A stretch of DNA of 45,098 bases from Elusimicrobia bacterium CG_4_9_14_3_um_filter_62_55. GTDB taxonomy: Bacteria > Elusimicrobiota > Elusimicrobia > UBA1565. Shown one piece after another: positions 2,474-16,983 of this stretch. The notes below the pieces were generated by a model. It had not been told where the DNA came from. It was given only the letters and a program-made list of their open reading frames with translations, and made no database searches. A program made the position numbers and the translations under genes. The stretch spans positions 1-45,098 of the forward strand of contig PFUL01000056.1 in assembly GCA_002790095.1 (NCBI GenBank), read 5' to 3'. Numbering within the stretch: the first letter of the stretch is position 1; each line of letters starts with the position of its first letter.

Positions 2474-2803
2474 GTTGTGGCTGCCGCGGCGGGTCGTTTC
2501 GTGCCCGGGGAGTCCCTCGCACTGGCACCAGGCGGGATGGGGGTCGCCGGCCTTCCAGCCGGGTACCTGATCTTCCAGATTCGAGATCACCCAGCATTTG
2601 TAGCAGAGCTTCATGCGGTTGATGGGGCGGTCCTCACCGCAACGGCGGCAGGTTCCGTCTTTGGGAGGGGTGCGCTGCTTGAGCTTATCGAGATCGAGGT
2701 CCTCGTCGCCGTCTTTCTTCTCGGCGGTTTCCTCTTCGGTTCGGGCCGAGCCGAGGATTTCGGCGAGCAATTCGTCTCCGGTGACTTTTGTTTCCGTGGT
2801 CAT
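2471..2803 (-). CDS. small zinc-binding protein of unknown function, coupled to ispG
   Basis: 110 residues. I do not recognise the family. Residues 1-45 are acidic and probably helical or disordered (EEETAEKKDGDEDLDLDKL). Then come C52-x2-C55, C67-x2-C70 (CRRC, CYKC), a zinc ribbon or knuckle, and a second cluster C93-x-C95 with H101 (WCQCEGLPGH). The start is the ATG at 2803, which overlaps the ispG stop as ATGA and has GGAGAGG upstream; the longer frame upstream lies inside ispG and is not used. Being coupled to ispG, an Fe-S enzyme, it could be a metal-handling partner, but that is inference from position alone. Confidence 0.75.
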   Translation of the reverse strand: MTTETKVTGDELLAEILGSARTEEETAEKKDGDEDLDLDKLKQRTPPKDGTCRRCGEDRPINRMKLCYKCWVISNLEDQVPGWKAGDPHPAWCQCEGLPGHETTRRGSHN

Positions 2804-4806
2804 ATGGCCTCTCCGTTCGCGGGTTCGACCCACTTCCCGTGAGCTCGAATAAGTTCGATAAGCGCCCGATCCGAATCGGCGGTGGGGACGCCTTTTTGGA
2901 CGCATTCTTTCCCGACGTACAAATTGATTTTCCCCGGGGCTCCGCCGACATAGCCGAAATCGGCGTCCGCCATCTCACCCGGGCCGTTTACGATGCAGCC
3001 CATAATTGCGATTTTCACGCCCTTCAGGTGTCCTGTCTGCGATTTGATGCGTTCGGTCGTTTTCTGGAGATCGAACAGCGTCCGGCCGCAGGAGGGGCAG
3101 GAGACGTACTCGGTCTTGGTGATGCGTACGCCCGCGGCCTGGAGGACGTTGTAGGCGAAGCGCAGGGCGTCTTTCGGCTTGTCTTGCGAGAGAATCTGGA
3201 CGCTGTCTCCGAGACCGTCGCAGAGCGCGGCGCCGAGGAGGACGGCGGCGTCGAGGCCTTCCCGCGATGCCTTCAGGTGCAGGGGCGTTTTGGAGCCGGC
3301 GTGCGCGAGCGCCGCGGCCAGACGCCGGGTCTCGTGAAGCGAGGAGCGTTGTGGGTCGGACGCTAAAGAGACGACGCAGGCGACGCCCGCCGCGCGGCAG
3401 GCCCGTTCGCCGAGGAGGACTCCCTCCACCGTTTCGGATTCAATCAACAGCGGGGTCTGCGTTTCAAGCGCCCGCGCGAGGAATCGTGCGCCGACTTCCC
3501 GGTCGAACCCGTCGCTCCAAACGGCCATGTCCAGATCGGGGAGGGCGTCTTCCCACGGCGCGTGCGGGTCGGAAAACCTGCCGAGGAAGGCGAGGCGGGA
3601 TGTCTCACCGGCGAGGAGGGACTTCGCTTCGCGAAGCGCGAGCAAGTCCTCGTCCGAGGAGATCGTCCATTCGAGAATTTCGGGTTCCAGCGCCTGCGGG
3701 GCCTGCAATTGCGCTTCGAGAAACGCCAGGATCTCGTCGCCGGGCGCTTTCCAGCGGGTGATCACGCGCACCGGGTGGACCCCTCCGAGACGGAAGGGAC
3801 CGACCTTCACCGAGTCGGTGTCGCGGCGCTTGTAGTCGAAGCAGTTCTCGATGTAGGGAAGGCCGGGATTCGGCGTATAGACCTTGGGAGGCGCGTCCGC
3901 CGCGTACGGCGCGGCGAGATCGCGGCACACCGGAATCTCGAATTCGGGGTCTTCCGTCAGGGAGACGCGGATCGTGTCTCCGATGCCGTCCTCAAGCAGG
4001 CTGCCGATGCCGACGGCCGATTTAACGCGGCCGTCTTCCCCGTTCCCGGCTTCGGTGACGCCGAGGTGGAACGGGTACTCCATGCCGAGCGCGGCCATTC
4101 GCGCGGCGAGCAGGCGATACGCCGCGATCATGATCTTCGGATTCGACGCCTTCATCGACAGAATAATATCGTAAAAATCGTTCTTCTCGCAGATGCGAAC
4201 GAATTCAAGCGCCGACTCGACCATCCCCAGGGGACTGTCCCCGTAGCGGTTCATAATGCGGTCGGAAAGCGAGCCGTGATTGGTTCCGATCCGAAGCGCC
4301 CGGCCGAGGCGCTTGAGCTTCTCCACCAACGGCGTGAATCGCTCTTCGATGCGTCCGAGTTCGGCGTGGTACTCGGGTTCGGTGTATTCGCGCACGGTGA
4401 AGCGCTTGGAGTCCACAAAATTTCCAGGATTGATCCGCACCTTCTCGACAAACTCCGCGGCGGCCATCGCGGCTGCGGGGTCGAAATGAATATCGGCGAC
4501 GAGGGGGACGCGGCAACCGGAGTCGTCGAGTGCCTTCCGGATGGTCTCGAGAGCGCGGGCCGCCCTCACCGTCGGGGCCGTGATCCTCACGATTTCGCAG
4601 CCGGCCTCGACCATGCGCAGGGCCTGAGCGACGGTCGCCGCCGTATCCAGCGTATCGGTCGTCGTCATCGACTGGAGGCGGAGGGGGTAGGACCCGCCGA
4701 CGAGGACGGAGCCGACCGCCACGACGCGGGTCCGACGGCGTTCGCGGCGGTACGGGTCACCTACGTGCGAATTAGGGGCGGTTTTGGCTTCCAGAACAGG
4801 GGCCAT
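2800..4806 (-). CDS. ispG: 4-hydroxy-3-methylbut-2-enyl diphosphate synthase, long form with insertion domain
   Basis: 668 residues, against about 370 in E. coli. IspG (GcpE) converts methylerythritol cyclodiphosphate to HMBPP in the MEP pathway using a [4Fe-4S] cluster. The N-terminal TIM barrel is recognised by RLQSMTTTDTLDT and PLVADIHFDPAAAMAAAE. The C-terminal cluster domain has C570-x2-C573 (SCPSCGRTLFDL), C604 (IMGCIVNGPGEM) and the catalytic Glu at 611, with E. coli-like spacing. Between the two domains lie about 250 extra residues (roughly 300-560) corresponding to the second barrel-like domain of the plant, Bacteroidetes and Chlamydia enzymes. The promoter has an extended -10 TGATATACT at 4819-4827, leaving a leader of only about 5 nt. 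The other MEP genes here, dxs and ispH, are at 19.9-22.8 kb. Confidence 0.96.
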   Translation of the reverse strand: MAPVLEAKTAPNSHVGDPYRRERRRTRVVAVGSVLVGGSYPLRLQSMTTTDTLDTAATVAQALRMVEAGCEIVRITAPTVRAARALETIRKALDDSGCRVPLVADIHFDPAAAMAAAEFVEKVRINPGNFVDSKRFTVREYTEPEYHAELGRIEERFTPLVEKLKRLGRALRIGTNHGSLSDRIMNRYGDSPLGMVESALEFVRICEKNDFYDIILSMKASNPKIMIAAYRLLAARMAALGMEYPFHLGVTEAGNGEDGRVKSAVGIGSLLEDGIGDTIRVSLTEDPEFEIPVCRDLAAPYAADAPPKVYTPNPGLPYIENCFDYKRRDTDSVKVGPFRLGGVHPVRVITRWKAPGDEILAFLEAQLQAPQALEPEILEWTISSDEDLLALREAKSLLAGETSRLAFLGRFSDPHAPWEDALPDLDMAVWSDGFDREVGARFLARALETQTPLLIESETVEGVLLGERACRAAGVACVVSLASDPQRSSLHETRRLAAALAHAGSKTPLHLKASREGLDAAVLLGAALCDGLGDSVQILSQDKPKDALRFAYNVLQAAGVRITKTEYVSCPSCGRTLFDLQKTTERIKSQTGHLKGVKIAIMGCIVNGPGEMADADFGYVGGAPGKINLYVGKECVQKGVPTADSDRALIELIRAHGKWVEPANGEAI

Positions 4807-4818
4807 AAGACGTACATC

Positions 4819-4827
4819 AGTATATCA
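4819..4827 (-). promoter_or_regulatory. extended -10 promoter of ispG
   Basis: On the minus strand the sequence TGATATACT is a TGn extended -10 followed after 12 nt by the ispG ATG. No clear -35 stands 17 nt upstream, as is usual for extended -10 promoters. The predicted leader is about 5 nt with no Shine-Dalgarno sequence. Confidence 0.55.
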
Positions 4828-4917
4828 AATTTAACAATTCCGTACTTGATAAACCGGGATTCGAAGGCATCCTAGTGGAGGTTCCGTTCTGGACGCGGCG
4901 AACGGAAGGGAGAGGCG

Positions 4918-5451
4918 ATGCTTCGGGCTTGTCTAATTTTATTCGCATTTATAATTGTTTATTGCGCTTCTAGTTCCTCGGCGAGGATGACCGGCGCCGG
5001 CTTCAATCTCGCCAATACCGAGTTCAACGCTGCCGGCGACGGCACCGTCGCCGCGGACGGGACCACGAAACTTATCGGGCGGCTCGGCGTCACGTCGGTC
5101 ACGAAAATGAGCGGGGGCGGCTTCGAATTGGGCCCCGGCGTGATCGCCTCTCAGCGGCCGGCGCAGACCGAGGTCGGAAGCGCCCATGCCTTTCCCGTTC
5201 CGTTCATCCCGGCGAACGGGGACCGTGAAATCGTCTTTACGCGCCTGCCGGCGCGCGCGACAATCCGGATTTTTACGATTTCCGGAGAACTCGTAAAGAA
5301 GATCGAGAAGCAAAGTGCCGCAACCGATCGCGTCTCCTGGTTTCCGGTCGCCAACGAACGGGGAAATCCCGTCGCAAGCGGCGTCTACCTTTGGGTCGCC
5401 GAAGACTCCGGGAAAAAGACAAAAATCGGCAAACTCATGATCATTAAATAA
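4918..5451 (+). CDS. small secreted protein with FlgD/type IX-like C-terminal domain
   Basis: 177 residues. The N-terminal hydrophobic stretch LILFAFIIVYCASS is a signal peptide. A short middle part (residues about 23-80) is Gly/Thr rich. Residues about 90-177 form a compact beta-sandwich of the FlgD-Ig/type A sorting-domain kind: FPVPFIPANGDREIVFTRLP, then ATIRIFTISGELVKKIE, then a Trp, then NPVASGVYLWVA and a final GKLMIIK. Such domains usually sit at the end of large secreted proteins; here the domain forms most of the protein. The start has GGGAGAGGCG just upstream. The gene lies 14 bp before a PorV-like gene, and PorV is the shuttle that handles CTD proteins in type IX secretion, so the pair may form a secretion/attachment module. 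Exact role unknown. Confidence 0.75.
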   Translation: MLRACLILFAFIIVYCASSSSARMTGAGFNLANTEFNAAGDGTVAADGTTKLIGRLGVTSVTKMSGGGFELGPGVIASQRPAQTEVGSAHAFPVPFIPANGDREIVFTRLPARATIRIFTISGELVKKIEKQSAATDRVSWFPVANERGNPVASGVYLWVAEDSGKKTKIGKLMIIK

Positions 5452-5465
5452 CCGGAAAAGAACCC

Positions 5466-6482
5466 GTGCGCGCTCTTCTCGTCTTTACCTCCGCGGTTTT
5501 CCTGGCTTCCCCGGCGTTCGCCATCAAGGGGCCCGGAACGACGTCGGCTAATTTCTTGAAGATCGGGGTCGGCGCGCGCCCGGTTGCCTTGGGCGAGGCG
5601 TACACCGCGTTGGCCGAGGACGTCAACGCGATTTACTACAACCCGGCGGGCTTGGCGTTTCTTCAGCGTCAGGAAGCGACGCTGATGCACAACAAATTCG
5701 TGGAGGGCGTCTCCCAGGAGTGGGCGGCCTACGCGCTTCCGACGCAAAAGTACGGCACCTACGCGCTGGGAATTCAGATGCTGCGGGTGAAGCCGTTCGA
5801 CGCCTACGACCGCTTCGACCGGCCTTCCGGGGAAGTTTCCGCGACGGATTTGGCGGCGACGATCGGCTGGGGCAAGGAGCTCGGCGCCGACCGCCGCTGG
5901 GCCTGGGGCGGCGCGGCGAAATACATCAGTTCAAAGCTGTATACCCGCCAGACGACCACTGTGGCCGCCGATTTCGGAGTGCTTCTGCGTGGTCCGGAAG
6001 ACAAGTGGCGGTATGGAGCGTCAATCCGCAATTTGGGGCGGGGGCTGAAATTCCTCGAGCAGCGCTTCGATCTGCCCGCGTCGCTTCGAGCCGGGGTTTC
6101 GTATCATACGCCGCTGGATTATCCGTTTTCCGGGTCGTATTTGACCTGGAGCGCCGAGGGGATTATGGACGTCGATCGCTACCCGACGGGCGCGGGCGGC
6201 CTTGAGTTCAGCCCGGTGAAGGAAATGACCATCCGCGTCGGGTACCGTCAAAATCAGGATTCCGGCCTTGGAATCTCGGCGGGCTTCGGATTCAGTTCTC
6301 TTGAGGCAGGATTCGTGGAAAATTACGCGTGGTGGCCGGAATTTCTGCTCGACTACGCGTTCGTCGATTACGGACCTCTTAAATATTCGCATCGCGTCAG
6401 CGTCACGATCCGCTTCGGGGGGTACAAGGGCAATACCTACGACCGAAAGGATCGCGTGCAGCACGAGTTGAAGCTGTGGTAG
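5466..6482 (+). CDS. PorV/PorQ (UPF0164)-family outer-membrane protein
   Basis: 338 residues with a cleavable signal peptide (LLVFTSAVFLASPAFA). The mature start contains TTSANFLKIGVGARPVALGEAYTALAEDVNAIYYNPAGLA, the hallmark of UPF0164/PorV proteins (G-RP-A-GEA-A-D-A-YNPAG), related to FadL-like barrels. The remainder is rich in alternating amphipathic strands and ends in an aromatic strand region, consistent with a 14-stranded barrel. In Bacteroidetes PorV binds C-terminal domains of type IX cargo; in other phyla the role is not established. GTG start chosen because the signal peptide begins there. The next gene follows after 19 bp, so the three genes 4918-9162 look co-transcribed. Confidence 0.85.
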   Translation: MRALLVFTSAVFLASPAFAIKGPGTTSANFLKIGVGARPVALGEAYTALAEDVNAIYYNPAGLAFLQRQEATLMHNKFVEGVSQEWAAYALPTQKYGTYALGIQMLRVKPFDAYDRFDRPSGEVSATDLAATIGWGKELGADRRWAWGGAAKYISSKLYTRQTTTVAADFGVLLRGPEDKWRYGASIRNLGRGLKFLEQRFDLPASLRAGVSYHTPLDYPFSGSYLTWSAEGIMDVDRYPTGAGGLEFSPVKEMTIRVGYRQNQDSGLGISAGFGFSSLEAGFVENYAWWPEFLLDYAFVDYGPLKYSHRVSVTIRFGGYKGNTYDRKDRVQHELKLW

Positions 6483-6501
6483 GAATTTCGCGGAGGAAGT
6501 T

Positions 6502-9162
6502 ATGATCGGATTAAAAAATCACCCGTCCATTCGGATTTTCGCGGCGCTCGCATTGGCCTGGGCCGCGGCGGTCGCGCCGGTCGCGGCCCAATACCGGACT
6601 CTGGAGACGGCGAAGCCCGGCACCGTCCCGACGGGGATGAACTACCAAGGCCGCCTTGAGAAAGACGGATTCCCCGTGACCGGCGACAAGGTCATGCGCT
6701 TCAAGCTCTTCGATGTCGCCGCCGACGGGACCGCCCTTTGGGACAGCGGGGATACCACGGTCACCGTGACCCAGGGCATCTTCGCGGAAGTTCTGGCCAT
6801 TCCCACCTCCGCGCTCAACGGCACCGCGCAGCGCTACCTGGAGGTCACCGTGGACGGCATCACGCTTCTGCCGCGCGACCCGATCCGCACGGTTCCCTAC
6901 GCGGCGATCGCCGAGACGGTCGAGGGGGACATCGAGATTTCGACGGCGGGACTGAGCTTTCAGGTCGGCGCGATCGCCGCGCTGGTTATTTCCTCGATCA
7001 CGAGCAACATCGGCATCGGTTCGACGAACTCCCCGGCGCAGTTTTCGGTGACGCCGCAGAGCGACGACTCCTTGATCGTGCAGATTTCAAGTCAGGACGC
7101 CAGCGCGGTGATGGTGGTCGACAACCGGGGCTTCATGGGGCTCGGTACGAATTCGCCGGGAGAGTTGATGGACGCCCGCTCGAGCGGAAACGCGCTGCTG
7201 CGCCTTCACGCGGACAGCGACAACAATTCGGGAAACCAGGACGCCGGGGTGGTCTTCGTCAACAACACGAACACGCAGACCGGGCAGATTATTTACGATG
7301 AAAGCGCCGATATCGTGACGATGGGCTACGGCGCGGCGAATCAGCACCTGAATATCGACAATACGGGCCGGGTCGGCATCGGGACGATCGCTCCAGGGAC
7401 CACCTTCGACGTCAACGGCAGCGCGCAATTCGGCTCGGGAGGGGCGAAATCGACCTTTACCGCGACCGGGGCGCTGCAGCTGAACACTTCGGCGGGATTG
7501 TCGGTCGGCACGACTTTTTTCGTCGGCAACGGCCGGGTGGGCGTCGGCACCGCCTCGCCTCAGGCGAAAACGCATATCCTCAACGCCGGAACGGCGGCTA
7601 CGCCCGCCGCTCAGGCGAACACCTTTCTGCGCGTGCAGAATTCCGCGGCGGGGGCCAGCAGCGCGATCGTCGAGGTCATCACCGGCGCTCAGGGACGGGG
7701 TCAGGTCTGCTTCGGCGACACGGCGAGCGCCTGCGTGGGCAGCGTCGGATACGATCATGGTTCGAACAGGTTGGCCTTGGGAGCCAATGGCACGTCCACC
7801 TTCATGACGATCGATTCGGCCGGTTCCGTAGGCGTCGGAACCCAGGTTCCGGCGACGACGCTCGACGTCGCGGGCTCGGCCCAGTTCGGAAACGCGGGCA
7901 CGAAGTCGGGGTTTACCACCGGCGGGACGCTGAACATGGCGTCAGGGGCCAACATCGCGATATCCGGAGCGGGGAAGGTGACCCAACCGGCGGCCCCAAC
8001 CGCGGGGAACGACCTGACGAATAGGACTTATGTCGACTCTCATATCGGGACTTCGACCTACTGGAGCTTAACGGCCGGATCGATGCTCTACGAAAAAACC
8101 GCCGCGAGGGACGTGGGTATCGGAACCAACGACCCGATGGTGCGCCTGCACGTCATCGAAAGCGGGACCGCCGGCGCTGGGACGGTGGATACGATCGCGA
8201 CGTTTCAGAAGAGCAGTATCCCGGGCGAATCCGGCTCGATCGATGTCGTCGTTGGAGCGACCGGAAACGCGTCGTTGAACCTCGGAAACACCGGCGGTGC
8301 CAGCAGAGGGATCGTACTCTACAACAACAATACCGAAACACTCGGGTTGGGCGCGGGGGGGACTCCGAATCAGTTGACGATCAGCGGCGGGGCGGTTAGC
8401 GCGATCGGGACCTTGACACTTAATGATAACGACAGCGTGTCCGGGGATGTGAACCTTGTTTTTGGCGACGCGAACGAAACGGGAAACATCCAAAACGTCG
8501 CGAATATCTACGACGACACCGGTACGAACTCTTGGCTGGAGGTTTCCGGCTGCGGGACGGGGGCGACGCTCACGGCCGTGAACGCTCTGGGAACCCTAAC
8601 CTGTTCCTCGATCAGCATCACGCAAAGCCAGATCAGCGATCTCGATGCTGACCTGGTGGACCTCGCCGATGGAACTCTGACCTTCTCCAAGGTGGGAGCG
8701 GCAACGGCAAACCGAGCCACCCAGTTTGGAGCCGGCGGCGCGCTGGAAGCGGCCAGCGTTACGACGACGGAGCTCGGTCGCTTGACCGGCATCACCGGGA
8801 ATGTTCAGACATTGTTGAACGGTAAATTGGCTTTGGCCGGCGGAACGATGACGGGCGCGGTTGCGATGGGCAGCAACAAGATCACCGGCGTCGCGTCTGC
8901 CACGGCTTCAGGCGACGCGCTTCACTTCGGACAAATCCTGGCGTTTGATTCCAACGTCAGCCTCGGCAGCGCAGCCATCGAGGTGATGACGGTCACCGGC
9001 CTTGCGGCCACGGATACGATTCTCGCCGTGACGCAGAAGACGGCCGGCGCGAACAATACCGCGATCACCTCGTTTTCGACGTTGGCGGCGGACAAATTGA
9101 CGATCGGCTGGACCGGCGACCCGGGCGCGGGGGCCGTCGTAACCGTGACGGTTAAACGCTAA
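6502..9162 (+). CDS. large secreted tail-fibre-like surface protein with GxGTxxP repeats
   Basis: 886 residues with a signal peptide (FAALALAWAAAVAPVAAQ). Residues about 45-135 form a fibre-base domain: MNYQGRLEKDGFPVTG, MRFKLFDV, LWDSGDTTVTVTQGIFAEVL and VPYAAIAE. The stalk has at least six G-x-G-T-x-x-P units (GIGSTNSP, GLGTNSPGELMD, GIGTIAP, GVGTASPQAKTHI, GVGTQVPATTLDV, GIGTNDPMVRLHV), as in phage tail fibres and bacterial trimeric surface fibres. Near the C-terminus are fibre motifs GGTMTGAVAMGSNKITGV and DLTNRTYVDSHI. No endosialidase-chaperone domain follows; it ends in AVVTVTVKR. Start has GGAGGAAG upstream. No phage genes are nearby, so it is probably a cell-surface fibre or adhesin of the host, perhaps exported with the neighbouring PorV-like protein. 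Confidence 0.75.
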   Translation: MIGLKNHPSIRIFAALALAWAAAVAPVAAQYRTLETAKPGTVPTGMNYQGRLEKDGFPVTGDKVMRFKLFDVAADGTALWDSGDTTVTVTQGIFAEVLAIPTSALNGTAQRYLEVTVDGITLLPRDPIRTVPYAAIAETVEGDIEISTAGLSFQVGAIAALVISSITSNIGIGSTNSPAQFSVTPQSDDSLIVQISSQDASAVMVVDNRGFMGLGTNSPGELMDARSSGNALLRLHADSDNNSGNQDAGVVFVNNTNTQTGQIIYDESADIVTMGYGAANQHLNIDNTGRVGIGTIAPGTTFDVNGSAQFGSGGAKSTFTATGALQLNTSAGLSVGTTFFVGNGRVGVGTASPQAKTHILNAGTAATPAAQANTFLRVQNSAAGASSAIVEVITGAQGRGQVCFGDTASACVGSVGYDHGSNRLALGANGTSTFMTIDSAGSVGVGTQVPATTLDVAGSAQFGNAGTKSGFTTGGTLNMASGANIAISGAGKVTQPAAPTAGNDLTNRTYVDSHIGTSTYWSLTAGSMLYEKTAARDVGIGTNDPMVRLHVIESGTAGAGTVDTIATFQKSSIPGESGSIDVVVGATGNASLNLGNTGGASRGIVLYNNNTETLGLGAGGTPNQLTISGGAVSAIGTLTLNDNDSVSGDVNLVFGDANETGNIQNVANIYDDTGTNSWLEVSGCGTGATLTAVNALGTLTCSSISITQSQISDLDADLVDLADGTLTFSKVGAATANRATQFGAGGALEAASVTTTELGRLTGITGNVQTLLNGKLALAGGTMTGAVAMGSNKITGVASATASGDALHFGQILAFDSNVSLGSAAIEVMTVTGLAATDTILAVTQKTAGANNTAITSFSTLAADKLTIGWTGDPGAGAVVTVTVKR
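7372..7941 (+). repeat. internal stalk repeat in the fibre-like gene
   Basis: Two 38-residue units, residues 291-328 (7372-7485) and 443-480 (7828-7941), align without gaps with 22 identical positions; each runs VGxGT..P.TT.DV.GSAQFG..G.KS.FT..G.L. The units are diverged at DNA level, so this is an old domain duplication, not a recent slippage. Confidence 0.7.
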
Positions 9163-9172
9163 GCCGAACTGC

Positions 9173-9178
9173 TACAAT
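9173..9178 (+). promoter_or_regulatory. -10 box 5 nt upstream of nqrM ATG
   Basis: TACAAT ends 5 nt before the ATG at 9184, giving a predicted leaderless or 1-2 nt leader mRNA. No strong -35 is visible. The box also lies only 10 bp after the stop of the fibre gene, so nqrM appears to have its own promoter. Confidence 0.45.
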
Positions 9179-9183
9179 GGGGC

Positions 9184-9384
9184 ATGACGACGATCCTGCT
9201 TTCCGTCGTGGTCGTGGGCGCCTGCGCGGCGGCGATGGCGGTCGGCCTGCTATGGAAGAAGCCGCTTCAGGGTTCCTGCGGAGGGGCTTCCGGCAAACGC
9301 GCCGACATGGACTGCCCCGCCTGCGGCGGTGACCCGGCGAAGTGCGAACGCGAGTCCCCTACTTCGGCCAGTTCGAAGTCGTAA
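9184..9384 (+). CDS. nqrM: Na+-NQR maturation protein NqrM
   Basis: 66 residues. A single membrane helix (LLSVVVVGACAAAMAVGLLW) is followed by KKPLQGSCGG and then C44-x2-C47 and C54; with C32 in GSCGG this is the four-Cys layout of NqrM (formerly DUF539). In Vibrio NqrM is required to insert the iron centre shared by NqrD and NqrE. The identification is strengthened by the complete nqr operon and apbE just downstream on the opposite strand. The last nine residues (SPTSASSKS) and the stop lie in a 40-bp repeat that is otherwise the 3' end of apbE, so the tail is not family sequence. Single mismatch in the repeat (T at 9382) creates the TAA stop. Confidence 0.85.
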   Translation: MTTILLSVVVVGACAAAMAVGLLWKKPLQGSCGGASGKRADMDCPACGGDPAKCERESPTSASSKS

Positions 9385-9394
9385 CGGTTTTAAA
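9355..9394. repeat. 40-bp direct repeat, left copy (end of nqrM)
   Basis: Identical to 10235-10274 except for T instead of C at 9382. It contains the last nine codons and stop of nqrM and, on the other strand, a decoy copy of the last 11 codons and stop of apbE. The two copies are 880 bp apart in the same orientation and bracket a two-gene cassette. Confidence 0.9.
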
Positions 9395-9408
9395 CTGGCC
9401 CCTATCCG

Positions 9409-9963
9409 ATGAGCGAACAGCTTGAAGTCCTCAAGACAGTGGCCCAACGGCTCTCTCAAGCAGGGGTTCCGTACATGGTCAGCGGATCTGTCGCCATGAA
9501 CTTCTACGCCCAGCCACGGATGACCCGCGACATCGACATCATCGTGGAGCTTACACCTGATGCTGCCCGCCGCCTCCCGGGTCTCTTCGCGCCCGATTTC
9601 TACATCGATCCCGATGACGTGAACGAAGCCGCGCGTCAGCGAGGAATGTTCAACATCATCCACAACACATCCATCGTGAAAGTCGACTTCATCGTCCGCA
9701 AGGAGGACCCGTACCGAAAAATGGAGTTTGACCGTCGAAAGACCATGCCCGTAGAAGGATCTCCCATCAGCATCGTCTCCCCTGAAGACCTGTTGCTCTC
9801 GAAGCTTCGCTGGGCCCTCGATGGCGACTCCGGGATGCAGTTGAAGGACGCGCGCAATATCGTCCTGTCCAGGCAGGATCTTGACTGGGGATACCTTAAA
9901 CGATGGGCCGGCGAACTCGGAGTCAAGGATCTTCTACACCGATCCCGAGGGGAAGCCGTATGA
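9409..9963 (+). CDS. nucleotidyltransferase-fold protein (AbiEii/MNT-like, possible toxin-antitoxin or defence component)
   Basis: 184 residues. The nucleotidyltransferase motif is complete: G26-S27 in VSGSVAMNFYAQPR and D41-x-D43 in RMTRDIDIIVEL, with a third acidic residue in KVDFIVRKED (about 100-108). SIVSPEDLLLSKLRWA and DARNIVLSRQDLDWGYLKRWAGELGV at the C-terminus match a widespread family of stand-alone nucleotidyltransferases often found in small mobile two-gene modules. It could add a nucleotide to RNA or protein like AbiEii or MNT-type enzymes; the substrate cannot be inferred. The stop overlaps the next ATG (ATGA), so both are translated together. Both lie inside direct repeats, pointing to horizontal arrival. 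Confidence 0.75.
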   Translation: MSEQLEVLKTVAQRLSQAGVPYMVSGSVAMNFYAQPRMTRDIDIIVELTPDAARRLPGLFAPDFYIDPDDVNEAARQRGMFNIIHNTSIVKVDFIVRKEDPYRKMEFDRRKTMPVEGSPISIVSPEDLLLSKLRWALDGDSGMQLKDARNIVLSRQDLDWGYLKRWAGELGVKDLLHRSRGEAV

Positions 9964-10211
9964 ATGACACCGACCGCAAGGTAGAGCGCCTGCTGCGTAC
10001 CCTGCTCATGTCCAAGAGCGACGAGGCGCGCTTGGCCATGGGATGTTCGATGTTCGATGACGCCAAGGCCATCGCCCTGGCAGGACTGCGGGCCGAACGG
10101 CCCGGGATGGACGACCTCGAGTGCCGTGTCCAGCTTTTGCGGAGGCTCTATGGTCAGGACCTGGGAGAACCCCGGCTTAAGCGCGTTTCTGCGCGTTTAC
10201 GCCAAGCCTGA
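9960..10211 (+). CDS. small partner protein of the nucleotidyltransferase, unknown function
   Basis: 83 residues, starting at the ATG that overlaps the nucleotidyltransferase stop (ATGA). The protein is helical and basic, with a central stretch MSKSDEARLAMGCSMFDDAKAIALAGL and then MDDLECRVQLLRRLYGQDLG. I recall similar small proteins next to this nucleotidyltransferase family (SxxERLxMGxxMFxxAR pattern), but no function is known to me. The arrangement of toxin-like enzyme plus small partner suggests a toxin-antitoxin or regulator pair; this is inference. The longer in-frame extension to 9903 lies within the previous gene and is not needed. Confidence 0.65.
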   Translation: MNDTDRKVERLLRTLLMSKSDEARLAMGCSMFDDAKAIALAGLRAERPGMDDLECRVQLLRRLYGQDLGEPRLKRVSARLRQA

Positions 10212-10234
10212 TGCTGGCCTCGGGCGCGAACATC

Positions 10235-10274
10235 TCCCCTACTTCGGCCAGTTCGAAGTCGCAACGGTTTTAAA
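10235..10274. repeat. 40-bp direct repeat, right copy (3' end of apbE)
   Basis: Matches 9355-9394 at 39 of 40 positions. On the minus strand it encodes the last 11 residues of ApbE (from F-K-T-V onward) and the TAG stop at 10241-10239, so the right copy is the functional apbE end. Confidence 0.9.
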
Positions 10275-11276
10275 TCCGCCCGAACCGTCACCGATCATCA
10301 GGAGTCCCTCGAGTTCCGGGTCGGCTTCCAAATAGGCCAACCCCTCGATTTCCCCCAGCACCATCACCGCCGTCGCCGCCGCGTCCGCCTCCATGCAGGA
10401 CGGGGCGATCACCGACGCAGCCGCCAGTCGATGCGTGATGGGCTTCCCCGTGCGCGGATCGATGAAGTGGGAGTAGCGCTTGCCGTCGCGAAGGTAGAAG
10501 TTCCGGTAGCCGCCGGACGAGGCCAAACCTTTCCCGTCGAGAGCGACGACGGCGGAAAAGGACTCACCGACCCCCGCGCCGTCTCGCGGCGTTTCAATGC
10601 CGAGCCTCCACGGTTCGCCGCGCGAGTTTTTGCCGCGCGCAAAAACTTCCCCGCCGATCTCAACCATGAAGTTCTCGTGTCCGCGGGCGGCGAGCAGCGC
10701 GGCCACGGCGTCCACGCCGTATCCCTTCGCGATCGCGGAGAGATCCAAGCGCAGGGCGGGCGTCGAACGCTTTAACCGCCAAGGCTGCTCCAGCACGTGG
10801 ACCTTGCGCCAACCGACGCCTTGGCGCGCGGTCGCGAGGGCTTGGGCGGAGGGAATCGTCTCGGGGACGGCCTGGGGACCGAATCCCCATAGATCGACGA
10901 GCGCCCCGACGGTGGGATCGAAGGCGCCTCCGGTCGCGGCGGCGACTCTCAGCGCCGCCTGGACGACGAACGCGGTTTCCCCGGAGACTGGAAAGTCCCC
11001 GTTCGGACGGCCGGCGTTAAACCGTGAGAGTTCGCTTTGCGGGTCGTAGGTCGACATCAGCGCGTTGATCTCGGAAAGCCGTTTCTCGACGGCGGCGTGA
11101 AGATCCGCCCGGGCGCCGGAATCCGGTTTTTCGGAAACTTTAAGGGTGTAGCGCGTGCCCATCGTTTGCCCCGTGAGCAGCACCGGACCCTCTCCGCCTG
11201 GGGAGCAGGCCCCGAGCAGCAAAAAAAGGCCGGGGAGCAGTCCCCGGCCTTTTTTCGCGAACGCGGCGACGCTCAT
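10239..11276 (-). CDS. apbE: FAD:protein FMN transferase (flavinyltransferase), lipoprotein
   Basis: 345 residues. ApbE attaches FMN by a phosphoester bond to Thr of NqrB and NqrC. The N-terminus is a lipoprotein signal peptide with lipobox LLGAC (Cys at about residue 24), placing it on the periplasmic face where the NQR flavin sites lie. Family motifs are [75 protein letters not shown] and [12 protein letters not shown]. Its GTG-free ATG start overlaps the nqrF stop by 4 bp. Oddly, codons 7-21 of the signal peptide form a 15-bp-stem hairpin with T tract, and the last 11 codons lie in a 40-bp repeat shared with the end of nqrM. Confidence 0.95.
11222..11255 (-). terminator. terminator-like hairpin inside apbE signal-peptide codons
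   Basis: Perfect 15-bp stem (AAAAAAGGCCGGGGA against TCCCCGGCCTTTTTT) with a 4-nt loop. On the minus strand it begins 17 nt after the nqrF stop and ends in seven T residues, a strong intrinsic terminator, yet it sits within the reading frame of apbE. Symmetric A/T tracts make it functional on either strand in principle. It could uncouple apbE expression from nqrA-F unless translation of apbE prevents folding. Confidence 0.75.
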
Positions 11277-12508
11277 CCGAAGTCGTCGAACGCGATCATG
11301 TCCTTCTCGACGCCCATGTCGTAGAGCATCTTCTGGACGGCGGAAAGCATCATCGGCGGACCGCAGAGGTAGTATTCGATCTCACCGGGGTCCTCGTGCT
11401 TGCCGAGATAGTTGTCGAGGACGACCTGGTGGATGAACCCGACGTCTCCTTTCCAATCGTCCTCGGGCAGCGGGTCCGAGAGGGCGATATGAAACGAGAA
11501 GTTCGGGAAGCGCTTCTCGATCTCGCGGAAGTGGTCTTCATAGAAGATCTCGCGCTTGGAGCGCGCGCCGTACCAGTAGCTGACCTTTCTCCCGGTTTTG
11601 AGCGTGTGAAACAGATGAAAGATATGCGATCGCAGCGGAGCCATGCCGGCGCCGCCGCCGATATACATCATCTCGCGCTGGGTTTCCTTGATGAAGAATT
11701 CTCCGTAAGGGCCGGAAACGACGACCTTGTCGCCCGCCTTCAAATTGAAGATGTAGGACGAGGCGATGCCCGGGGGGATTCCGGTCGTCCTCGGCGGCGG
11801 GGAGGCGATGCGGACATTGAGCATCACGATGTTCCCTTCGGCCGGGTGGTTCGCCATCGAATAGGCGCGGTAGCACGGTTCTTCGTTGTTCGCCGTGAAG
11901 TCCCAGACCTTGAACTTGTCCCAGTCCGGGTGGAATTTCTCCTGAATCTGGAAGTCGCGGTAGCGAAGTCCGCTGTAGGCCGGGATGTCGATTTGGATGT
12001 AGCCGCCGGACTGGAAATCGATCCTCTTACCGCCGTCGATTTCCAGGACCAGTTCCTTGATGAAGGTCGCGACGTTGTCGTTGGACTTCACCGTGCAGTC
12101 GAACTTCTGGATTCCGAAGATTTCCTCCGGGAGCCGTATCTTGAGATCCTGTTTGATCTTGACCTGGCAGCCGAGCCGCCAGTGCTCCTTCTGCTCCGCG
12201 CGCGTGAGATGACCGGTTTCCGTCGGAAGCACGTCTCCGCCGCCCGCCAGCACCTTGCATTTGCACATTGCGCAGGTCCCGCCGCCGCCGCAGGCGGAGG
12301 GGAGGAACACGCTTTGAGAGGACAGCGCCGAGAGCAGGGTCTGCCCGGCCGGGACGGTCACGGATTTCTCCGGGTCGTCGTTGATGGTGATGGTGACGTC
12401 GCCGGTTTGCACCAGCTTGCTTTCCGCGGCCGAAACGAGGATGACCAGCAGGAGGATGACGCCGGTAAAGACAACGACGCTGAGAAGAATGAATCCCAAG
12501 GTTCCCAT
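11273..12508 (-). CDS. nqrF: Na+-NQR subunit F, NADH-oxidising flavoprotein
   Basis: 411 residues from the ATG at 12508, which overlaps the nqrE stop as TAATG; a further in-frame upstream start would lie within nqrE. One N-terminal membrane helix (residues 3-26) is followed by a [2Fe-2S] ferredoxin domain with C73, C79, C82 ([11 protein letters not shown]) and C114 (RLGCQVK). Then a FAD domain with [10 protein letters not shown] (the R-x-Y-S-M-A-N motif) and an NADH domain with [12 protein letters not shown] and YLCGPPMM. NqrF takes electrons from NADH and passes them from FAD to the 2Fe-2S centre on the cytoplasmic side. Its stop overlaps apbE. Confidence 0.97.
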
Positions 12509-13119
12509 TAGAGGCTGATCCCCGAGAAGCACATGAACGCCATCGCCATGAGTCCCGTGAGAATGAAGGTCATCCCCAGGCCGCGCAGGCCGCGCGGGAT
12601 GTTCGAGTAGCGGATCTTATGCCGCATCGCCGACATCGCGACGATGGCGATCGCCCAGCCCAAGCCGGCCCCGAAGCCGAAGACGACCGATTCCCCGAAC
12701 CCGTAGTCGCGTTCAACGAGAAACAGCGAAGCGCCGAGAATCGCGCAGTTCACCGCGATTAGGGGGAGGAAGATGCCCAGAGCGGAGTAGAGCTTCGGCG
12801 CGAAGCGGTCCATCGTCATCTCAACGATTTGCACGGCCGCGGCGATCACCGCGATGAAGGTGACGAAGGCGAGGAAACTGAGGTCCACCCCGGGAAGACC
12901 GGCCCACGAGAGAGCCCCGGGTTTCAGGAAAACCGTGTAGATGATCCAATTCAGCGGAGCCGTGAAGGTCAATACGAAGGTGACCGCCGTTCCCAGACCC
13001 ACCGCCGTTTCGACCTTTTTGGAGCATGCGAGGAAGGAACACATGCCCAAGAAGTAGGCGAGCAGAATGTTCTCGACGAAGATGGACTTCGTCGCCAGGC
13101 TGAGATAATGCTCAATCAT
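12508..13119 (-). CDS. nqrE: Na+-NQR subunit E, integral membrane
   Basis: 203 residues with six membrane helices. It shows the NqrE/RnfA signature: [22 protein letters not shown] near the N-terminus and [45 protein letters not shown]. The conserved Cys in [12 protein letters not shown] and in AVNCAILG are those that, with the NqrD Cys, hold the intramembrane iron centre that NqrM helps to build. It overlaps nqrD by 8 bp upstream and nqrF by 1 bp downstream. Confidence 0.96.
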
Positions 13120-13777
13120 GTTTTTCCACTCCCATGAGCGTTCGCTGGCCCCAAATGAGCAGCCCGACGATGAGGAAGGCCCCCGGGGCGAGAACCATCA
13201 AGCCGTTGTTGACATAGCCGTGCGCGTAGAGGAAGCCGGGAACGACCTTGAAGCCGAGCACGGAACCGCTGCCGAGAACTTCCCGGATAAACGAGACGGT
13301 GATCAGCACGAGGCTATAGCCGAGCCCGTTGGCGATCCCGTCGATGAAGGATTCCCGGGGCGGGTTCCCCATCGCGAAACCTTCCGCGCGGCCCATCACG
13401 ATGCAGTTGGTGATGATCAGACCGACGAAGACGCTCAACTGCTTGGAGATCCCGTACAGGTAGGCTTTCAGGATTTGGTCCACGACGATGACGATCGAGG
13501 CGATCACCGACAACTGGACGATGATGCGGATTTTCGACGGGATATAGTTGCGAAGCAGCGAGACCGCGAGATTCGAAAATGCTGTGACCACGGTCAACGA
13601 GATCGCCATGACGATCGCGGTTTTCATCTGCACGGTGACCGCGAGAGCGGAGCACACTCCGAGAATCTGGAAGGTGATCGGGTTGTTGTCCCAAAGGGGA
13701 TCGGTCAGAATTTTCTTCTCGCGTTTCGTGAGCCCCAGGGGGGGCGAGGCGGGAGGGGCGGCGGTTTCGGTCGCCAT
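13112..13777 (-). CDS. nqrD: Na+-NQR subunit D, integral membrane
   Basis: 221 residues. Hydrophobic, six helices, with [29 protein letters not shown] near the N-terminus (family Cys in GVCSALA) and the NqrD/RnfE motif [24 protein letters not shown] with the second family Cys. ATG at 13777 is preferred over the GTG at 13780: TGATG joins it to the nqrC stop and AGGAG stands about 8 nt upstream. The pseudo-symmetric D/E pair surrounds the iron centre and the Na+ path. Confidence 0.96.
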
Positions 13778-14433
13778 CACTGTTGCTCCTTGCGAATCGT
13801 TTTTAGAAAGGGTTCGTAGCGTTCGAGTCCGGCGCGTACGAGCTTCGTCACGCCCTTGCTGGTGAGCGTCGCTCCGCTGATGCCGTCGACGAAGTGAGAT
13901 TGCTGATCGGGGGCGATCAATTCGGCGACCTTCCCTTTCACGACCGCGACGGAGGCGAGCGATCCGTCGGAGCCGAGGATTTTTTTTCCAACGAAATTCT
14001 GTTGGAACCAGGGCTTTTCAATTTCCGCGCCCAAGCCCGGCGTTTCGCCGTGCTTGTAGAAGGTGATCCCCTTGACCGTGTCGCCGTCCGGCTCCAGCGC
14101 CAGGTAGCCGTAGAGCGTCGACCAAAGGCCTTTTCCGGAGATGGGAAACGCGTAGGCGGCCGGAGCGCCGTTTTCCTCGCGCGCATAGAGCGGGAGCTTA
14201 GCGTCGGTCACTTCGAGTTCCTTGATCTTGGACGCGTACAACGAGGCGATTTCATCCGGGTTCGAGGCATGCAGCCCAACGGCTCCGAGGATGTTCTTTT
14301 GCTTGTCGAGCAGAACGTTGCGTTCCTGGCGATCCTTCAAAAGGATGGCCGCGGAGGAAACGACGAGACTGCAAACGACGCAGACGACGGCGGCGAACGT
14401 GAGGGTATAGCTCGTCGAGGGGGTCTTAGACAT
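13777..14433 (-). CDS. nqrC: Na+-NQR subunit C, covalent FMN subunit
   Basis: 218 residues from the ATG at 14433. One N-terminal helix ([24 protein letters not shown]) anchors a periplasmic domain. Flavinylation motif D183-G-I-S-G-A-T189 marks Thr189 as the FMN attachment site for Apb[12 protein letters not shown] and [11 protein letters not shown] are other family hallmarks. The longer reading frame upstream of 14433 lies in nqrB and adds no family sequence. ATG overlaps the nqrB end by 8 bp. Confidence 0.96.
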
Positions 14434-15637
14434 TTGAAGCGCCTCTCCACGCCTTTCGTTTCGCAAAATGCCCCTGCATCACCGCATAATCAATGAGCGG
14501 GGCGAGGATGTTTAGAAACAGGATCGCCAGCATCATCCCTTCGGGATACGCCGGGTTGACGGTTCGAATCAAAATTACCAAGGCGCCGATCAGGAGTCCG
14601 TAGATCACCTTTCCGCGTTTCGTGCGCGCGGCGGAAACCGGGTCGGTCGCCATGAACACCGTTCCGAACATGAAGCCGCCCAGCATCAGATGCCAGACGC
14701 CGGGGAGGAACATAATGCCCGCGGATTCCGGCCCGGCCGCGGCGTTCATCACGACGGCCATCCCGAGCGCTCCGGCAACGCAGGAGACCATGATGCGCCA
14801 ACTGCCGACGCCGGTAGCGACGAGAATATAGGCGCCGGCCAGGCAGGCCAGAGTCGAGGTTTCTCCGATGGATCCGGGAATCGAACCGAGGAAGGCCTGC
14901 TTCATCGTAAAGCCAGCGTCCGTGAGCGCGGCGACGACTTGCGGGCCCTTGGATCCTGCCGCGACCAAAAGGGGAGTCGCTCCGCTGTATCCGTCGACGA
15001 GTTTGTCCTTCGCCGGATTCACCCAGGTCCACACCTTGTCTCCTGAGATCGCCGCGGGGTACGCGAAGAAAACGAAGGCGCGCGCGGTCAACGCCGGGTT
15101 GAGAACGTTCATCCCGGTTCCGCCGAAGACTTCCTTGCCCAACACGACGCCGAAAGAAATCCCGAGCGCCACCATCCACAGGGGAATCGACGGAGGAAGC
15201 GTCAGCGGAAACAACAGGCCGGTGACGAGAAATCCCTCGTTGATCTCGTGGCGGCGAACGACCGCGAACAGAACTTCCCAAATCCCGCCGGCCGCGTACG
15301 AGACGATCACGATCGGCACCGTGGCCATCAAGCCCTTGAGCATGCAAGAGACCGGATCCGTCGGCAGTCCTTGCGCCGCGAGCGCCTGCAATCCTACGTT
15401 ATAGGAGCCGGCGAAGAATGTCGGGAGTATCGCGACCACGACCAGGATCATCAAGCGCTTCATGTCGAGCGCGTCCCGCACGTGAGGACCGGCCGCCGTG
15501 ACTGTGGCGGGGGAGAACAGGAAGGTCTCCTTCGCCTCGTAGAGGGGAAAGAAGATCTCGAATTTTCCGCCTTTCTCGAAAAGCGGCCGGGCCGCCTCGA
15601 GCTTCTCTTCGAGCAATTTGATCGGGTTCACGTTCAT
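14426..15637 (-). CDS. nqrB: Na+-NQR subunit B, covalent FMN and riboflavin membrane subunit
   Basis: 403 residues from the ATG at 15637 overlapping the nqrA stop as ATGA. About ten membrane helices. Family landmarks are DALDMKRLMILVVVAILPTFFAGSYNVG, HEINEGFLVTGLLFPLTLPPSIPLWMV, GGTGMNVLNPALTARAFVFFAYP, and the flavinylation site DGYSGAT with Thr221. WHLMLGGFMFGTVFMATDPVSAA lies near the C-terminus. NqrB is the core sodium-channel subunit. Homologous to RnfD, but the length and full NqrA partner confirm NQR. Confidence 0.97.
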   Translation of the reverse strand: MNVNPIKLLEEKLEAARPLFEKGGKFEIFFPLYEAKETFLFSPATVTAAGPHVRDALDMKRLMILVVVAILPTFFAGSYNVGLQALAAQGLPTDPVSCMLKGLMATVPIVIVSYAAGGIWEVLFAVVRRHEINEGFLVTGLLFPLTLPPSIPLWMVALGISFGVVLGKEVFGGTGMNVLNPALTARAFVFFAYPAAISGDKVWTWVNPAKDKLVDGYSGATPLLVAAGSKGPQVVAALTDAGFTMKQAFLGSIPGSIGETSTLACLAGAYILVATGVGSWRIMVSCVAGALGMAVVMNAAAGPESAGIMFLPGVWHLMLGGFMFGTVFMATDPVSAARTKRGKVIYGLLIGALVILIRTVNPAYPEGMMLAILFLNILAPLIDYAVMQGHFAKRKAWRGASNV

Positions 15638-16983
15638 CCTTCCTTTCGGATCAGATCGATCCCTCGGCGCAGAATGGCGCCGACTTCGATTTTCGACGGA
15701 CAGACGAAGGTGCACAGCCCGCAGTCGGCGCAATCGAGGATGCCGTGCTTCTCCATCTCCTCGATGTCGCCGGCCATCACGGCCTTCGCCGTCTGGTCGG
15801 GCCAGATCCCGACGGGGCAGACGTCTTCGTAAATACCGCTCTGAACGAAATTGCGGAGACTGCCCTGGAGATTGGTGTCCAGCGCGTATTCCGCTTTCCC
15901 GAGGAAGGAGGAAAGGCAGGTGCTGCTGACGGTGTACTTATCGAGTCCTGGGCGGAAGAAGCTGAGGAACTCCCGTTCGCGCCCTTCTTTCAGCGCGAAG
16001 AGCGCCGTATCGTAAAAGCCGATAAATCCCGTTCGAGGGATTTTCCGCCCGTTCATGACCGAGCCGGAAACCAGGCGCAGTTCGCCCGGTTCGCAACGGC
16101 CCTCAGTCAGTGATTGGGCCGACGCGCCCAACCGGGTGCGGAACAACTGCCGCTCGGTCGCGGCGGGCCCGCCGAGCGCCACGACGCGCTCCGGGGAAAC
16201 TCTACCGGTTCTTACGAAGCGGGCCAATGCGAGCAGATCCTGAGCGCGCAGATACCAAACGGATTCCTTGGCCTTGGGGGGGCAGGCGTGATAGATCTGA
16301 ACGGCCGGATCTCCGGCGGGGTAAGGGCCCGAGAACCGGAGCGTACGGACGCCGGTCGCGGCGGTCAACGCGGGAGAGACGGCGTTCGCCGGGACCGCCA
16401 AGAAGACGGGGCCGTCCGTGAGCTTGGCCGCAAGATCCAAGCCCAACTGAAAATCCTTTTCCTCCCCGCGCAGCACGAGATCCGGATCGGCATCGAACGC
16501 GTCTTGGGGCGTCGCGCAAATCAAGACGGATTGAGGCCGTTCGTCCGGATTCGCAATGCAGGCGAAGGGACGCCGCCGGATGAGGGACCAAGCCCCGCCT
16601 TTGAGCAATTTCTCGACAAGCGCTTCGCGCGTCAGCGCGCGAGCGTCTGAGTCGTCGAGCGCGCCGAACTCCTCGAAGGCGTCCTCCCCCGCGAGGGCCA
16701 CGACGATCTCGAGGAGCTTTCGGCGTTCTCCGCGGTGAATCTGTTCGATCGTTCCGGAGGCCGGCGAGACGAGAACGACGCGCGCGTCGTCCTTGCTCTC
16801 GAGGAGGGGAGTCCCCGCCTTGACCGCGTCTCCTTCTCGTACGAGCAAACGCGGTCGGAAATAACGAAAATCGCCGGGCTGCAGGGCCGTGCGAGCGGGC
16901 CGCGGAGCGTCGACGATTTTATAGGCCGGGCGACCTGCGATCTTAAGATCGAGGCCCCGGCGAATTGAGATAGTGGAGGCCAT
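15634..16983 (-). CDS. nqrA: Na+-NQR subunit A, with unusual Cys tetrad
   Basis: 449 residues, normal for NqrA, the peripheral cytoplasmic subunit that reaches the quinone site. Family motifs: IRRGLDLKIAGRPAYKI, RPRLLVREGDAVKAGTPLLESK (biotinyl-like fold), SPASGTIEQIHRGERRKLLEIV, GLWS-type GGAWSLIRRRPF and NGRKIPRTGFIGFY. At the C-terminus the usual LCSFVCPGK region reads C418-x2-C421-x2-C424-x3-C428-P (LDCADCGLCTFVCPSK), a complete ferredoxin-like pattern as in RnfC; Vibrio and Haemophilus NqrA have acidic residues at the first two positions. First gene of the nqrABCDEF-apbE operon; ATG follows its promoter by about 20 nt. Confidence 0.96.
   Translation of the reverse strand: MASTISIRRGLDLKIAGRPAYKIVDAPRPARTALQPGDFRYFRPRLLVREGDAVKAGTPLLESKDDARVVLVSPASGTIEQIHRGERRKLLEIVVALAGEDAFEEFGALDDSDARALTREALVEKLLKGGAWSLIRRRPFACIANPDERPQSVLICATPQDAFDADPDLVLRGEEKDFQLGLDLAAKLTDGPVFLAVPANAVSPALTAATGVRTLRFSGPYPAGDPAVQIYHACPPKAKESVWYLRAQDLLALARFVRTGRVSPERVVALGGPAATERQLFRTRLGASAQSLTEGRCEPGELRLVSGSVMNGRKIPRTGFIGFYDTALFALKEGREREFLSFFRPGLDKYTVSSTCLSSFLGKAEYALDTNLQGSLRNFVQSGIYEDVCPVGIWPDQTAKAVMAGDIEEMEKHGILDCADCGLCTFVCPSKIEVGAILRRGIDLIRKEG

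Follow-up and report, generated by a model that had tools for sequence, protein, structure and literature searches.

Genes of the locus

The window analysed here, a stretch of 45,098 nucleotides, is contig C11 of the 202-contig, 4.31 Mb genome of an uncultured Elusimicrobiota bacterium. It contains three genes (the trio) for a mini-protein, an outer-membrane barrel and a fibre protein; their features are listed in Table 1. As stated in the preliminary description, the genes are co-directional and closely spaced, with gaps of 14 bp (mini-protein/barrel) and 19 bp (barrel/fibre). All three reading frames were also chosen by a coding-potential caller, which placed the start of the mini-protein at 4987.

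Table 1. Positions in the window of the trio genes and of the parts of their products.
Feature	Position	Strand	Basis
Mini-protein, 177 aa	4918..5451	+	ORF; signal peptide, flexible Gly-rich module and type IX-like C-terminal domain (CTD)
Flexible N-terminal module of the mini-protein, residues 24-81	4987..5160	+	pLDDT <50 at residues 20-72; conserved columns; profile matches; SGGGFxLxPG-type motif
CTD of the mini-protein, residues 82-177	5161..5448	+	Ig-like sandwich; TIGR04183, Foldseek, structure comparison
PorV/PorQ-family outer-membrane barrel, 338 aa, GTG start	5466..6482	+	NF033709; match to PDB 6h3i
Fibre protein, 886 aa	6502..9162	+	ORF; signal peptide judged by eye; CTD absent
Fibre base domain, related to Bdello_MAT_N	6607..6951	+	Family matches among relatives; predicted beta-sandwich

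Upstream of the trio lies a divergent gene (2800-4806, - strand), which by eye we take to be IspG. An NqrM-like gene (9184-9384, + strand; Pfam match) follows 21 bp 3' of the fibre gene. It is convergent with opposite-strand genes at 10239-16983, the sizes and order of which resemble an ApbE/Na+-NQR cluster; NqrM is the one member matched by a search. At 9409-10211 lie an AbiEii-like nucleotidyltransferase (22.7 bits to the Pfam model, which has a cut-off of 22.5) and, behind it, a small gene that weakly matches the Rv0078B antitoxin. By these sequence matches the two are possibly a toxin-antitoxin pair.

The mini-protein had been described as almost nothing but a CTD. This description holds, with the addition of a flexible N-terminal part. 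In the NCBIfam scan TIGR04183 matched at the C-terminus (residues 92-175) with 25.4 bits against a cut-off of 23, while the Pfam CTD models stayed under their cut-offs (CHU_C at merely E 0.2). The AlphaFold model is confident for residues 82-177 (block means 88-97), falls below a pLDDT of 50 in residues 20-72 and contains no folded domain besides the CTD. The flexible part (about 55 aa, glycine-rich) is nevertheless conserved in sequence among relatives. A lipoprotein reading gained no support: no lipobox was seen by eye in the copies inspected.

The nearest known CTD is that of PorZ. By E-value PorZ was the top NCBIfam model for the mini-protein, with 36.2 bits against a cut-off of 260 and over the CTD portion alone; the scan gave neither a full-length match nor beta-propellers, so that membership in PorZ is not indicated. 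A profile of mini-protein relatives found PorZ in the PDB at 8.3e-5 (2.8e-9 with a wider set). The predicted CTD structure likewise ranked PorZ first (5m11; Foldseek 3.7e-7, Z 12.8) and PorU second (6za2; 1.8e-4, Z 11.5), and other T9SS CTDs (8glk, 8gl6) lower, amid unrelated Ig-like structures. The TIGR04183 match and the Ig-like fold of solved T9SS CTDs both place the domain in type A. Neither element of a type B pair such as SprB/SprF was found: no window protein matched the TIGR04131 CTD or the TIGR03519 PorP/SprF barrel at E ≤ 1. A lysine of type A CTDs is described as contacting PorV (PMC10994853). Lys172 of the mini-protein is invariant in 15 of 15 sequences; we do not claim that it is equivalent to RemZ Lys1110.

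The assignment of the second protein to the PorV family was confirmed with 159.3 bits to the NCBIfam model PorV_fam (NF033709; cut-off 90), which makes it a member of the PorV/PorQ family. Within this family it is nearer to PorQ (119.5 bits) than to PorV (57.1 bits), although the cut-off of 220 for the PorQ equivalog (NF033711) is not reached. In the PDB it matched 6h3i, PorV of the SprA complex (E 7e-20). The named relatives that match the barrel best are metagenome-assembled genomes (MAGs) of Elusimicrobia.

A scan of the 886-aa fibre protein gave no Pfam match. Its relatives point to a base like that of the Bdellovibrio mosaic adhesive trimer (MAT) fibres: 17 of 18 aligned relatives matched Bdello_MAT_N (NF053851) at E ≤ 0.1, the best at 4.2e-7, while the window protein itself scored 21.4 bits, under the curated cut-off of 60. 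The base was modelled as a beta-sandwich, and the model had no PDB match at E ≤ 0.001 and no match to a CTD. For the N-domain of the Bdellovibrio MAT, too, a sandwich without clear PDB match has been reported (PMC10769870). The middle part of the fibre gave weak matches to phage tail fibres. Median identity was 46% in the base but 29% in the last 120 aa (36 pairs from nine complete trio fibres), so the trio fibres have the constant base and variable tip of MAT fibres.

We collected 108 genes with this base domain from the own and related genomes. The set consists mainly of matches down to about E 3e-15 (a weak one on contig C50 of the own genome lies outside it), and one gene, whose two parts seem to be on contigs C82 and C152, is represented by two entries. 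None of the 108 carries a CTD. A PorV-family gene stands within five genes in a same-strand run in 48 cases and is missing in the other 60, contig ends aside; hence the base can exist without a PorV gene. Three MAT-base loci of the own genome follow a PorV-family gene, either immediately or with one gene in between; the match on C50 is a weak additional one. At L226, L228 and L247 three MAT-base genes for proteins of about 480-498 aa stand side by side, with no PorV gene in view.

Co-inheritance of the trio

Next we considered the distribution of the three genes over 57 genomes, the own genome and its relatives. The mini-protein was matched at E ≤ 3.3e-21 in 14 of them, and barrel matches of at least 376 bits occurred in the same 14, the next barrel scoring 265 bits; the alignment behind the barrel search covers ten of these 14 (G010, G040, G043 and G051 lie outside it), and since the genomes share descent the agreement does not represent 14 independent events. 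The trio is contiguous and co-directional in ten of the 14, with gaps of -20 to 66 bp and in three gene orders: mini-protein, barrel, fibre in four genomes; barrel, mini-protein, fibre in four; and barrel, fibre, mini-protein in two. In the remaining four the trio is split by contig ends: the barrel adjoins the fibre, and the mini-protein is found at or close to the end of a different contig. The grouping of the genes is thus conserved while their order is permuted, and we conclude that the trio is real and co-inherited.

The flanking genes are common to close relatives and differ between the main groups; the ten complete loci fall into about five unlinked flank groups. This indicates that the trio moved, or was kept, as a unit. 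In the barrel phylogeny the trio barrels form one clade (15 of 152 rows, SH-aLRT 94). It includes L106, a locus of a named MAG with a trio-type barrel and a mini-protein but without a fibre gene alongside. A second clade of four rows (SH-aLRT 99) has the order mini-protein, barrel, fibre in three cases and a contig end in the fourth; we do not take the two clades as independent origins. A Sumerlaeota MAG contains, in line, a repetitive fibre-like reading frame, a 189-aa mini-protein and a barrel; the start of the fibre is beyond the contig, and the base domain is out of view.

Genes for proteins of about 150 aa, which follow some of the fibre genes, were considered as a fourth component. They do not form a single family, since they match within close relatives only, and the idea was dropped. 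From reading their letters we assume that they are housekeeping genes (TrmL-like, GreA-like).

CTD proteins, barrels and type IX machinery in the genome

The search for other CTD proteins that the preliminary description had called for was productive: TIGR04183 gave 13 matches in the genome, and a CTD gene stands beside most PorV-family barrel genes. Fifteen of the 25 PorV-family genes examined have a same-strand CTD gene immediately upstream, in eight cases with a 4-base overlap, and among named loci this holds for 53 of the 82 PorV-family genes with a visible upstream gene; in both counts the loci were picked by PorV matches, PorP/SprF-like and TraF_2-like barrels are included, and contig ends lower the numbers. 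At a further locus (L067) the CTD gene is directly downstream of the PorV-family gene. The longest partner protein has at least 2,373 aa. The mere 13 matches in the genome imply that TIGR04183 detects only part of the CTD proteins. Since most of the roughly 25 barrel genes adjoin a gene for a CTD protein, one cargo with one barrel appears to be the rule here. The trio is a form of this pattern in which the CTD is on a tiny separate protein and the fibre has none. The idea of a surface-display module of CTD protein, barrel and fibre is well supported by conservation, with the correction that the trio exemplifies, in a special form, an arrangement seen throughout the genome.

In L092 (contig C145 of the own genome, G000; 4083-11618) three genes stand in a row: one for a CTD protein of 1671 aa, one for a mini-protein of 157 aa whose CTD is type B-like, and one for a 667-aa barrel that combines PorP_SprF with TPR parts. 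Pairs of a small CTD protein with a barrel of about 665 aa at L219, L220 and L231 resemble it. Two tandem TraF_2-type barrels (L086, 7112-9625, contig C103 of the own genome) lie about 4-6 kb before a gene for an SprA-like protein.

This protein (2,064 aa, contig C103) scored 130.7 bits (E 3.3e-38), which is under the equivalog cut-off of 200; SprA was matched in 51 of the 57 genomes. With the conserved trio and this SprA-like protein, neither of the results that would have refuted the preliminary description (gene order not conserved, no type IX components in the genome) was obtained. A PorU-type protease domain was not detected. Because matches of the full PorU model in the own genome were confined to CTD-like ends, Peptidase_C25, the sortase domain of PorU, was searched for instead. 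It was found in none of the 14 trio genomes, while a control genome labelled Marinifilum gave 5.3e-50. Models of GldL and GldM found no match, but the control genome labelled Bacteroidota (G057) was equally silent, so that these searches do not bear on the presence of the motor.

PorU removes the CTD of most cargo proteins after export, although not that of PorZ, and cleavage does not strictly define type A CTD proteins. If no sortase is present, the CTD should stay on its barrel and the barrel would serve one copy of cargo, which would explain why there is one barrel gene per cargo gene. A parallel is known from Flavobacterium johnsoniae, where type B cargo depends on cognate barrels, of which a stoichiometric supply is presumed to be necessary (PMC12618676).

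A possible mount for a surface fibre

We propose that the trio builds a surface fibre on an outer-membrane mount of its own, with the mini-protein as an adaptor that docks on the barrel and holds the fibre; of the readings considered this is the best supported, and we give it about an even chance. The CTD of the mini-protein would be taken through the SprA-like translocon and would dock, uncleaved, on the dedicated PorV/PorQ-family barrel. The flexible N-terminal module would then face outward and hold the MAT-like fibre, which has no CTD, by its base domain; the variable tip of the fibre would point away from the cell. We infer the docking from homology with PorZ:PorQ and with PorV-CTD structures in Bacteroidota, and likewise that the CTD stays uncleaved, that mini-protein and fibre are in contact, and which route the fibre takes across the membrane. 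In favour of the proposal are the co-inheritance of the three genes, the nearness of the CTD to those of PorZ and PorU, which are held on barrels in Porphyromonas gingivalis, and the negative Peptidase_C25 search in the trio genomes. Against it speak the locus L106, the 60 MAT-base genes with no PorV-family gene nearby, and the scores of the SprA-like protein and of the MAT match, which are under curated cut-offs. Of the three roles that the preliminary description had offered for the mini-protein (anchor, pilot or competitor for the barrel), that of an anchor fits best; a role as competitor found no support.

A part of the evidence concerns the N-terminal module. Its profile recovers mini-proteins outside the set from which it was built (L051, L053-L055). 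Similar sequence occurs in six of 25 fibre-linked long CTD proteins and in none of 62 others (Fisher p 3.5e-4, a post hoc comparison with E-values of 0.005-0.8); by length and context the six seem to represent about two related groups. We regard this association in sequence between module and fibre as a lead only.

The pattern of CTD cargo beside a barrel, found at 15 of 25 barrel genes, could also mean that the mini-protein is just another small cargo protein, shuttled by the barrel and with a function of its own, and that the fibre gene is merely co-regulated. The many MAT-base genes that stand alone and the locus L106, with barrel and mini-protein but no adjoining fibre, fit this explanation. 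Against it stands the persistence of the fibre gene next to the pair across the ten complete loci, with their three gene orders and about five unlinked flank groups; nor does the mini-protein have a folded domain besides the CTD. We consider this explanation fairly unlikely. Alternatively, the mini-protein could be a cap or plug, the CTD of which occupies and stabilises the outer face of the barrel while the fibre is handled separately. Gorasia et al. (PMC9143113) raise, as a speculation, the possibility that PorP is capped by PG1035, a CTD protein that binds to it, and a MAG labelled Obscuribacterium encodes a 118-aa protein of signal peptide plus CTD only beside a PorV-family fragment (L286, 393-749). 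A cap would explain neither why the fibre gene is inherited with the pair nor why the N-terminal module is conserved, and most other barrels of the genome are paired with long CTD proteins, which makes this explanation improbable.

It is also conceivable that export or mounting of the fibre is the task of the barrel, and that the mini-protein regulates this step or competes for the site. The barrel directly adjoins the fibre in several relatives, and the own genome has three MAT-base loci just behind a PorV-family gene or one gene further on. But the predicted fibre base has no match to a CTD, and PorV-family barrels are not known to act as channels for such proteins. We judge this explanation very improbable.

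Four known systems come closest to the trio. The CTD and barrel families closest to those of the trio belong to the attachment complex of Porphyromonas gingivalis, in which PorZ and PorU are anchored on the barrels PorQ and PorV at about 1:1 (PMC5562754) and the PorZ CTD stays uncleaved (PMC8545088). The trio differs in that it has no beta-propellers and no sortase; the mini-protein is a CTD plus linker, and a fibre gene is in the operon. In F. johnsoniae a dedicated barrel, SprF, is encoded beside the type B CTD protein SprB and is thought to remain as its anchor (PMC12618676, PMC9143113), whereas the trio combines a type A, PorZ-like CTD with a PorV/PorQ-family barrel and a separate, CTD-less adhesive fibre. 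The CTDs of the type A cargo proteins RemZ, NucA and RemA (8glk, 8gl6), which dock on the SprA-PorV translocon (PMC10994853), have the same fold as that of the mini-protein. Those proteins share one PorV, while here the cargo genes mostly have their own barrel gene.

The fibre resembles the MAT fibres of Bdellovibrio bacteriovorus in its related base domain, phage-like repeats and variable tip; it differs in scoring under the curated family cut-off and in being linked to a CTD protein and a barrel. According to the description of MAT fibres, their base presumably binds a surface element that is still unidentified (PMC10769870). A wider claim, which we make tentatively and think somewhat doubtful as a whole, is that the mini-protein supplies a CTD in trans to the CTD-less fibre, docks permanently on its own barrel and so provides the attachment element for the MAT base, and that the wider genome would represent a sortase-free type IX display with a PorV-family barrel for each cargo. 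If true, this would reveal how fibres of the MAT type, which are known chiefly from predatory bacteria, can be mounted on the cell surface, a point that their discoverers left open (PMC10769870). It would also mean that a sorting signal of type IX is able to serve as an adaptor protein in its own right, and that a phylum in which no PorU sortase is detectable achieves display by giving each cargo its own barrel. Our literature search found no paper on such a trio or on its mode of display in Elusimicrobiota.
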